Below, piece after piece: positions 30,258-32,404 of a DNA stretch of 64,000 nucleotides. Made by a program: the position numbers and the translations under genes. The number at the start of each line of letters is the position of its first letter. Within the stretch, counting starts at the first letter, position 1. The DNA is taken from positions 74,788 through 138,787 of the forward strand of contig LEKQ01000016.1 in the NCBI GenBank assembly GCA_001443005.1, given 5' to 3'. Source of the stretch: a bacterium GBS-1 (GTDB lineage Bacteria > Synergistota > GBS-1). The notes beneath the pieces were generated by a model. It saw nothing but the letters and a program-made list of their open reading frames with translations. It made no database searches and had not been told where the DNA came from.

Positions 30258-30295
30258 GCTAAAGTTTGGAGGCTTAACATGCTATCTTTTATCTC

Positions 30296-30325
30296 TTGAC
30301 AGCTTTATGCCCTATGTGATATATA
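30296..30325 (+). promoter_or_regulatory. Promoter of the aroE attenuator
   Basis: TTGACA (30296-30301), 18-bp spacer, TATATA (30320-30325) preceded by TG-A, i.e. an extended -10. Transcription would begin about 20 nt before the leader peptide's AGGAGGT. Confidence 0.7.
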
Positions 30326-30354
30326 TCTATAAAAGGACTGAGGAGGTAAGCTTT

Positions 30355-30468
30355 ATGAGAAAGGGCACAGCTAGCCTTAACGTGTGGTTTAGCTTTAATT
30401 ATTATTACTTTTACTTTACCTGGCCCGCCAAGCTGCGGGAAAGGCTGGCTGTGCTTTCCCTGAGGTAG
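30355..30468 (+). CDS. Aromatic-residue leader peptide of the aroE attenuator
   Basis: A 37-codon reading frame with an excellent AGGAGGT ribosome-binding site. Residues 11-23 read WFSFNYYYFYFTW: ten aromatic residues in thirteen (two Trp, four Phe, four Tyr). Codons run from 30385 to 30423. The frame ends at TAG 30466-30468, 26 nt before a rho-independent terminator. This is the classic design of an amino-acid-sensing leader peptide: the ribosome stalls when charged aromatic tRNAs are scarce. Downstream is aroE of the aromatic pathway, so sensor and regulated function match. It is too short for usual gene calling and has no expected function as a protein. Confidence 0.92.
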   Translation: MRKGTASLNVWFSFNYYYFYFTWPAKLRERLAVLSLR

Positions 30469-30529
30469 GAGCCTACCTCTAAGGGGTTGACCGAAAAGCC
30501 GCCACCTTTCCCGGTGGCGGCTTTTTTTT
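30424..30529 (+). promoter_or_regulatory. Transcription attenuator (competing RNA structures) before aroE
   Basis: Segments that can pair in competing ways: CCCGC 30424 with GCGGG 30435; GGGAAAG 30437-30443 with CTTTCCC 30454-30460; GAGGTAGG 30462 with CCTACCTC 30472; and CGGGAAAGG 30436-30444 with CCTTTCCCG 30505-30513, extendable by four more pairs past a bulged C45. The last pairing takes the 5' arm and loop of the terminator, so it would act as antiterminator. Which set forms with a stalled ribosome needs folding; the exclusivity itself is visible. Confidence 0.75.
30494..30529 (+). terminator. Rho-independent terminator of the aroE attenuator
   Basis: Thirteen-bp stem when A-T closings are counted (core GCCGCCACC 30498-30506 with GGTGGCGGC 30513-30521, loop TTTCCC), followed by eight T. 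It lies inside the leader, 38 nt before the aroE start. Confidence 0.93.
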
Positions 30530-30567
30530 ATCCATCTCACGGAACGGCCTTTGAGGGGGTGAGCGTT

Positions 30568-31521
30568 TTGAAGTATTCCGTGAGTTTGATAAAGGGTTTT
30601 CAAGGAAGCTTTATTCCTACGGTGAACACGAAATATATAGGGCTTTTGGGTTATCCCCTATCTAAGAGTCTCTCTCCTAAGCTTCATAATGCTTGCTTTA
30701 GGAAGATGGGATTAGACTATCTTTACTTACCCCTTGAGGTTAGGGATGAAAGTAGCATTAAGAGGGTTCTTGAAAGTATGGTTTACTTTAACTTCGTTGG
30801 CTTCAATGTGACCATTCCTTGGAAGGAAACCGTTATTCAATATCTTGATGAATTAGACGACTCCGCTACTTTCTGCGGTGCGGTTAACACGATATCCCTT
30901 AAGGATGGTAGGCTCATCGGGTATAACACCGATGGGGTTGGCTTCATGATGTCATTTTTAGAGGCTTTTGGTGAGACCCCTTTGGGTAAAAGCGTGCTAA
31001 TTCTTGGTGCTGGAGGGTCTGCCCGCTCCATATCCTTTCAGATGCTTGCTGAGGGAGCCTCTTCCATAACCATAGTCAACAGGAGCGTTGAGAGGGGAGA
31101 AAGGCTCGTTAAAGCCCTGGACGAGAAGTTCCCTGGGAGGGTGAGCTTTGTTCCCTTAAGAGGTGGTTTCAAGCACGGCATGGCTCGAGATTTCGATATC
31201 GTTATAAATACAACGAGCGTTGGTATGTATACCTCCGTGGATGAATCTCTTCTCGATGAGAGGGATTTTAAGCCCGGTCAACTTGTCTGCGATATAGTTT
31301 ATGATCCACCGATTACCAAGATGCTCGCATGCGCGCGAGCTAAAGGTGCGAGAATCCTTTCGGGGAAAGGGATGCTTATTCATCAGGCGGCTTACGCTTT
31401 TAAGATATGGGTAGGTCTTGAACCTGATATAAAATTGATGTTTGAAGTATTTGACAGTCATTTCCTTCGGTTTGCTAGATTATATGAGAAGGATATTAAA
31501 AGAAAAAAGACTTTAATATAG
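30568..31521 (+). CDS. aroE: Shikimate dehydrogenase
   Basis: NADPH-dependent reduction of 3-dehydroshikimate to shikimate in aromatic amino acid synthesis. Substrate motif LSKSLSP (about residues 31-37), the catalytic lysine in NVTIPWKE, NTDGVGF with the catalytic aspartate, and cofactor motif GAGGSARS. The start is the TTG at 30568, eight nt after GAGGGGG; a longer in-frame reading from 30487 overlaps the terminator and has no ribosome-binding site. 317 aa, with about 22 extra N-terminal residues before the usual YIGLLGYP. The aromatic attenuator upstream argues for the biosynthetic role rather than quinate/shikimate catabolism. Confidence 0.95.
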   Translation: MKYSVSLIKGFQGSFIPTVNTKYIGLLGYPLSKSLSPKLHNACFRKMGLDYLYLPLEVRDESSIKRVLESMVYFNFVGFNVTIPWKETVIQYLDELDDSATFCGAVNTISLKDGRLIGYNTDGVGFMMSFLEAFGETPLGKSVLILGAGGSARSISFQMLAEGASSITIVNRSVERGERLVKALDEKFPGRVSFVPLRGGFKHGMARDFDIVINTTSVGMYTSVDESLLDERDFKPGQLVCDIVYDPPITKMLACARAKGARILSGKGMLIHQAAYAFKIWVGLEPDIKLMFEVFDSHFLRFARLYEKDIKRKKTLI

Positions 31522-31533
31522 AATTAAAATCGA

Positions 31534-31562
31534 TTGACACATTCGTCAATAAAGGTTATAAT
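31534..31562 (+). promoter_or_regulatory. Consensus sigma70-type promoter of aroD
   Basis: TTGACA, exactly 17 bp, TATAAT: a perfect housekeeping promoter. It gives aroD transcription independent of the aroE attenuator, though readthrough from aroE is also possible as no terminator lies between. Confidence 0.85.
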
Positions 31563-31618
31563 GAATCTAGTTAACTTTATAAAATATACTTTTACGTTGT
31601 GGAAGAGAGGTGAGGGCC

Positions 31619-32404
31619 TTGCGCTTAGCCTGTGGTAGGCCCATATCCGTTAAGGGGAAGCTTTTGGGAGGGCCTAAGCCTATCCTTTGCATCCCTCTTG
31701 TGGCTCGGTCTGTGGAGGATGTTCTTAGGCTTTCTGAGTATATAGCTTCTGCCAATCCTGATTTCGTTGAGCTTCGCGTAGACTATTGGGATTTCTTAGA
31801 TGACCTATCTAAAGTTAAGGATGTCATCTCTCTATTGAGGGTTAAGCTTTCTGATACACCTTTCATCTTGACCTGTAGGGATCATAGAGAAGGAGGCTTT
31901 AGGGAGATAAATTTGGATTTAAAGACCAAGGTATACGAAGAGGCCCTTTCTAAAAGATTGGTTGACTTCGTGGATGTGGAGCTCGCCTTGGGAGATAGGT
32001 ATATAAGCTTAATTAAGGACATGGTTAAGTCAGCTTCGGCCTTCTTAATCATATCCTATCATGAGTTTTCTCGAACCTTGTCCGAGGATGAGATATTCGC
32101 CAAACTCTCTCAGGAGATCTTTTGTGGGGCTGATGTTGCTAAAGTTGCCATCATGCCTAAATCTCATGATGATTTGATGAGTCTCTTAAGCGCTACCTTG
32201 CGTGCGAGAAAGGCCTTTCCTGATATCCCAATGATTACCATGGCCATGGGTAAAATCGGAGCTTTAAGCCGAATAGTCGGTTTCGCCTGGGGTTCGGACT
32301 TGAGTTTTGCTATGCTTTCTGAAGCTTCGGCACCAGGGCAAATCTCTGCCTCTATTCTCTCCGATATATTTAAGACCTTCGAAAGTTTAGGTATGTGGGG
32401 TTAA
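31619..32404 (+). CDS. aroD: 3-dehydroquinate dehydratase, type I
   Basis: Schiff-base dehydratase making 3-dehydroshikimate, the substrate of AroE. Active-site residues: E in FVELRVDYWD, H in ISYHEFSRT, and the Schiff-base K in ADVAKVAIMP; the substrate arginine in TCRDHREGG; a closing loop with SEASAPGQIS. 261 aa from the TTG at 31619, which is spaced 5 nt from GAGAGGTGA; a GTG at 31610 is an alternative. Adjacent to aroE but with its own promoter. Confidence 0.94.
   Translation: MRLACGRPISVKGKLLGGPKPILCIPLVARSVEDVLRLSEYIASANPDFVELRVDYWDFLDDLSKVKDVISLLRVKLSDTPFILTCRDHREGGFREINLDLKTKVYEEALSKRLVDFVDVELALGDRYISLIKDMVKSASAFLIISYHEFSRTLSEDEIFAKLSQEIFCGADVAKVAIMPKSHDDLMSLLSATLRARKAFPDIPMITMAMGKIGALSRIVGFAWGSDLSFAMLSEASAPGQISASILSDIFKTFESLGMWG

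Follow-up and report, generated by a model that had tools for sequence, protein, structure and literature searches.

A predicted ribosome-mediated transcription attenuator with a mixed Trp, Phe and Tyr leader peptide upstream of aroE in the Synergistota bacterium GBS-1

Our analysis of a 64,000-nucleotide stretch of DNA from the Synergistota bacterium GBS-1 (hereafter, the window) indicates, on the basis of sequence, that aroE is very probably controlled by a ribosome-mediated transcription attenuator that senses charged aromatic tRNAs. The aroE gene (30568-31521, forward strand, start codon TTG) encodes shikimate dehydrogenase (TIGR00507, 6e-79, above cut-off; Pfam PF08501, PF18317, and PF01488) and is followed on the same strand by aroD (31610-32404), which encodes a type I 3-dehydroquinase (PF01487, 1.6e-56). 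The sequence between the two genes contains a perfect consensus promoter, TTGACA-17-TATAAT (31534-31562, forward strand), from which aroD could be transcribed independently of the attenuator. The window's genome, G000, is 1.81 Mb in size and 98.5% complete, and it was compared with those of three relatives from the same family, G001, G002, and G003, the last of which corresponds to the MAG bacterium 42_11 according to a DNA pattern match.

Upstream of aroE, the forward strand contains a putative promoter, TTGACA-18-TATATA (30296-30325, with the -35 element at 30296-30301 and the -10 element at 30320-30325), a predicted ribosome-binding site, GAGGAGG (30340-30346), and a 37-codon leader peptide reading frame, MRKGTASLNVWFSFNYYYFYFTWPAKLRERLAVLSLR, that extends from an ATG at 30355 to a TAG stop codon at 30466-30468. 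Codons 11-23 of this frame (30385-30423), which we call the sensor, specify two Trp, four Phe, and four Tyr residues, such that ten of thirteen positions are aromatic. This density is matched by none of 3000 dinucleotide shuffles of positions 30258-30567, for which the maximum is eight. The leader is followed by an intrinsic terminator (30498-30529, forward strand) with a 9-bp core stem and a 6-nt loop, GCCGCCACC-TTTCCC-GGTGGCGGC (30498-30521), and a U8 tract (30522-30529). If the AAAA that extends the stem is included, the terminator begins 26 nt past the leader stop codon. The 178-nt leader folds with a z-score of -5.8. A reading frame of the translated type with its own ribosome-binding site, a run of end-product codons, and a terminator between leader and gene are therefore all present, and the promoter, the 37-codon frame, the aroE start, the ten aromatic residues in thirteen, and the terminator with its eight T residues are each found where a preliminary description of this DNA had placed them. 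A scan for consensus promoters and terminators lists neither the promoter nor the terminator of the aroE leader; the scanner missed the promoter because it demands a T at the last -10 position, and it probably missed the terminator because pairing of the stem extends into the U-tract.

The leader is also found upstream of aroE in G002 (VVKSVANLNVWFSFYYYFYFTWPAKLRERLAMLCKR) and G003 (LRNCVTSLNVWFVYYYYFYFTWPAKVRERLVALSRR). The preliminary description had proposed a comparison of aroE upstream regions among relatives, and in these two the small frame, its stop codon, the terminator, and the promoter are indeed kept. Changes to aromatic codons among the three aroE leaders are either synonymous or exchange F for Y, and the sole length difference within the run is one whole codon, while the peptide beyond the run drifts. 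An aroE-type leader is absent from G001, which has a different aroE, and the aroE copy is seen in three genomes only. Likewise, no aromatic leader is found upstream of the aroE genes that lie separately in other families or in the surroundings of tyrA in G002 and G003, and a single-sequence AroE search of genomic and viral contig collections produced no relatives.

The segment-2 pattern of the aroE leader (the 5' arm of the antiterminator described below) recurs once more in G000, upstream of a TRAP transporter operon, dctP-dctQ-dctM, and a leader of like architecture precedes this operon in all four family genomes (L032:1432-1608, forward strand; L066; L064, reverse strand; L063; L065, reverse strand). 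These leaders are Tyr-rich, reading ..SYYAYYYYYYLYPARLRERLVALPLR in G000, ..SYCVYYYYYYYLKPAKLRERLAALLLR in G002, ..VYYYAYYYFYYYSPPEGGKGWLRKG in G003, and ..SFGYRYYYYYLKPARMRERLAVLTMG in G001, and the substrate of the transporter may be tyrosine or a precursor of the aromatic amino acids. All seven leaders have a promoter sequence of the form TTGAC(A/T) with TATA(T/A)A, or with TATAAG in the TRAP leaders of G000 and G003. Outside the family, a pattern search that allowed two mismatches produced hits at approximately the level of a reversed control. At the G000 TRAP locus, a divergent phenylacetate-CoA-ligase-like AMP-binding gene lies upstream. The TRAP copy is more widespread in the family, and the aroE attenuator was probably copied from it.

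An alignment of the seven leaders (A3, comprising three aroE leaders from G000, G002, and G003 and four TRAP leaders from G000-G003) supports three mutually exclusive helices, and this places the attenuator reading of the preliminary description on firmer ground, since a covarying protector helix and an antiterminator, neither of which was named there, are both present. In the protector helix, segment 1 (30365-30376) forms 12 pairs with 30443-30454. This helix is paired in 97.6% of cells in A3, and 5 of its 12 pairs are changed on both sides. A single compensatory pair is found in the terminator, namely that of the TRAP leader of G002. The covariation of protector and terminator combined is reached by 0 of 500 shuffles, and slid registers are only 27-51% paired. 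The antiterminator is formed by segment 2 (30437-30449, which shares 30443-30449 with the 3' arm of the protector) and a 3' arm, GCCACCTTTCCC (30501-30512), that overlaps the terminator's 5' arm and its loop. Its 12 pairs (GGGAAAGG, a bulged C, and UGGC with GCCACCUUUCCC) are paired in 100% of cells in seven of seven leaders; one pair is G-U in two leaders, and the helix is near-invariant and hence has no covariation of its own. Complementarity between the leader segment that follows the sensor and the terminator arm beats shuffles in all seven cases (0-5 of 300 as good). A candidate pause hairpin, CCCGC..GCGGG, with one compensatory GC to AU change lies just 3' of the sensor (30424-30439), and a middle stem-loop (30458-30485) contains the leader stop codon; all of these elements are on the forward strand. 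The leader, the sensor codons, the three exclusive helices, their conservation, and their covariation are thus established at the level of sequence and its comparison among relatives.

Transcripts of the seven leaders were also folded with different parts hidden, mimicking ribosome positions. The protector forms when nothing is hidden (0.85-1.00), the antiterminator forms when a ribosome is stalled on the run and the terminator arm and loop have been made (0.95-1.00 in six of seven), and the terminator is the sole possibility when the ribosome is at the stop codon. Folding therefore switches from state to state as ribosome-mediated attenuation needs in six of seven leaders. In the remaining one, the G003 aroE leader, the antiterminator reaches only 0.03 in the stalled state of the folding model, and a local hairpin probably competes with it. 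Equilibrium folding of the full-length leader prefers the terminator in every state; the choice would therefore have to be kinetic, made during transcription.

Use of the promoter, termination at the U-tract, and a response to starvation would follow from these features. With ample Trp, Phe, and Tyr, a ribosome would traverse the aromatic codons to the stop codon at 30466-30468, where it would cover segment 2 or stand just past it, and the terminator would form and halt RNA polymerase near 30529. If the charged tRNA for one of these amino acids were scarce, the ribosome would stall within codons 11-23, and the stalled (or a queued) ribosome would mask segment 1 and free segment 2 for pairing with the terminator's 5' arm and loop, allowing transcription to proceed into aroE. 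If the leader were not translated, segments 1 and 2 would pair, leading to termination. Presumably, all three amino acids would be sensed in this manner, and a shortage of any one alone would suffice to trigger read-through.

Two further aromatic leaders are present in G000, where the leader search required six consecutive F/Y codons and may miss leaders that lack such a run. The first, MNIVVSKVGACWYYYFFFE, ends in WYYYFFFE and lies directly upstream of the main aro operon, aroF-aroA-aroC-aroKB, in which only aroD and aroE are lacking from the common-pathway genes (L134, reverse strand; L137, oriented, 1337-1396). Its 18-bp antiterminator starts at the leader end and pairs GAAUAGGGGUAUUUACCU with AGGUAAAUACCCCUAUUC (z-score of -5.5), and the leader has a counterpart in G002, MNIWADRIRDFGYYYFFFE. 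The second, MNWWWQAYKPAAA, contains WWW and lies upstream of trpE (L169:666-707, forward strand). It is followed by two tandem terminator-like hairpins, at approximately 735-772 and 780-825, the second of which was used in the antiterminator complementarity test.

Leaders of this type extend beyond the family. A conserved motif leader (e.g., SYYFTDGQWRYYASGPKSRGNPRSA), with the pattern YYFTDGQWRYYASGxxxRGNPSSA, precedes aroF in seven other families (L140-L150, L152, L154, L156-L161, and L164). Its RGNP codons are complementary to a terminator arm, pairing GUGGAAAUCCG with CGGAUUUUCAC in L154 and L156, GUAGAGAUCCG with CGGGUUUCUAC in L160, and GAGACCG with CGGUCUC in L142, and the antiterminator complementarity beats shuffles (at most 5 of 300 as good) at 10 of the 15 loci tested. 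Other aromatic-rich aroF leaders occur at L151, L153, and L155 (FYYFYCFTRNKSD, then CC) and at L162, L163, and L165 (YYFYFFGASRKVILCC), both types having Cys-Cys near the end. In many genomes of the phylum, including G006, G011, G019, G020, G022, G025, G042, and G055, aroE lies within a few kilobases of aroF on the same strand, whereas in the window's family it is apart from the aroF operon. The model of the aroE and TRAP leaders, R1, also produced weak hits outside the family, and these are not members of that RNA family. Four of them led to other aromatic leaders, upstream of sodium:solute symporter genes; Tyr/Phe-rich leaders with terminators precede such genes in two other families (L071:1501-1617 and L072, reverse strand; L100:948-1079 and L079, reverse strand). 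We regard these as attenuators only tentatively, the antiterminator test being not significant in the three that were scored.

The likely reason for an attenuator at aroE is that the main aro operon, itself equipped with a W/Y/F leader, contains neither aroE nor aroD, and in the simplest reading the aroE leader brings this separately located gene back under end-product control. On balance, we somewhat favor a broader view in which the aromatic metabolism of the phylum is run by a set of leader-peptide attenuators, with a W/F/Y leader at aroF in most families, and in which aroE, once split off, regained control through a copied Tyr-rich transporter attenuator whose run was rewritten to W/F/Y while the RNA switch was kept. 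The purpose of Phe and Tyr sensing in G000 is less certain, since neither prephenate dehydratase nor prephenate dehydrogenase has a Pfam match in this 98.5% complete assembly (through an assembly gap or a true loss); prephenate dehydrogenase is present in G001-G003.

Of the alternatives, the one that fares best is that a single aromatic amino acid, such as Tyr or Phe, is sensed in practice and that the other codons are relics or serve fine tuning. We consider this possible but less than probable. The TRAP paralogue is Tyr-rich, which suggests that the sensor may originally have been specific to Tyr, and the Phe-Tyr-Phe leader aroR of Corynebacterium glutamicum acts on Phe limitation only (PMC11802643). 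Against this, the three aroE leaders all retain both Trp codons together with the F/Y mix, and the independent aroF leader in the same genome mixes W, Y, and F as well. It is very unlikely that the small frame instead yields an arrest peptide or one with a function of its own, with the terminator serving only to end the TRAP operon upstream. Most copies do share the peptide tail PAKLRERL, but a conserved promoter divides the leader from the upstream gene at seven of seven loci, and in the G003 TRAP leader the frame is shifted past the Tyr run, giving the tail PPEGGKGWLRKG, while the RNA stretch CCCACCAGAAGGTGGGAAAGGCTGGCTGCG is unchanged, which argues that conservation acts on the RNA and not on the tail of the peptide. 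Finally, a leader RNA that binds a ligand or tRNA (a riboswitch or T-box) or a protein-controlled terminator would fit the strong conserved structure and yet is highly improbable, since that structure is centered on a translated aromatic run in the manner of attenuation, and an Rfam scan, whose listed matches include no Trp or Phe leader, found no family at threshold (best score 27.4 bits for rnk_pseudo, threshold 55) and no match to the T-box model up to E = 1.

Proteobacteria and Actinobacteria are the best-known sources of leader-peptide attenuators, and some occur in Firmicutes (PMC2965389, PMC1262725, PMC9413887). A search of the literature on Synergistetes and attenuators, with partial full-text coverage, found only a paper on HisR (PMC9413887). 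If our reading is correct, a whole set of aromatic attenuators, covering the common pathway, a scattered aroE, the trp operon, and candidate transporters, would exist in a phylum for which the literature searched contained none, and the aroE leader would be a case of attenuator duplication followed by codon re-tuning. Since the aroE and TRAP sister leaders have the same RNA switch and different codon runs, they offer a natural test of whether an attenuator can be re-targeted through its codons only. The pair also tests whether a mixed leader sums several amino acids, which aroR, the one studied case, did not.

The preliminary description considered it unusual for a common-pathway step to be preceded by a mixed aromatic leader. 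This view needs to be narrowed, as such a leader is the rule for aroF in this phylum and precedents exist elsewhere. Attenuation of a common-pathway step through mixed aromatic codons is already known from the aroR leader of the C. glutamicum aroF operon, in which Phe limitation matters and Tyr limitation does not (Neshat et al. 2014, as described in PMC11802643). The likeness of aroR to the aroE leader is functional only: both are ribosome-mediated attenuators with mixed aromatic codons at a common-pathway gene, whereas aroR controls aroF, belongs to another phylum, and has no reported Trp codons. The uORFC-13-1 motif of Acholeplasma, a computational prediction (PMC8632094), similarly places a Phe-containing small reading frame and a terminator before a shikimate-pathway gene; it differs in having a Phe run only, in its target, aroF, and in its phylum. 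What appear to be new are the aroE target, the mixture of W, F, and Y, the existence of a Tyr-rich paralogue, and an aroF leader that spans the phylum. Like the E. coli trpL, pheL, and pheST leaders, the aroE leader combines a promoter, a peptide rich in end-product codons, a protector, an antiterminator, and a terminator. Those leaders each respond to a single amino acid and control late-branch or synthetase genes, and in the aroE leader, unlike in them, the protector's 5' arm precedes the sensor and segment 2 is part of the reading frame, before the stop codon. The ilvL leader of ilvGMEDA has Ile, Val, and Leu codons, which represent more than one end product of a branched pathway. The aroE leader shares with ilvL this use of codons for multiple end products, ilvL serving the branched-chain family and the aroE leader the aromatic one.
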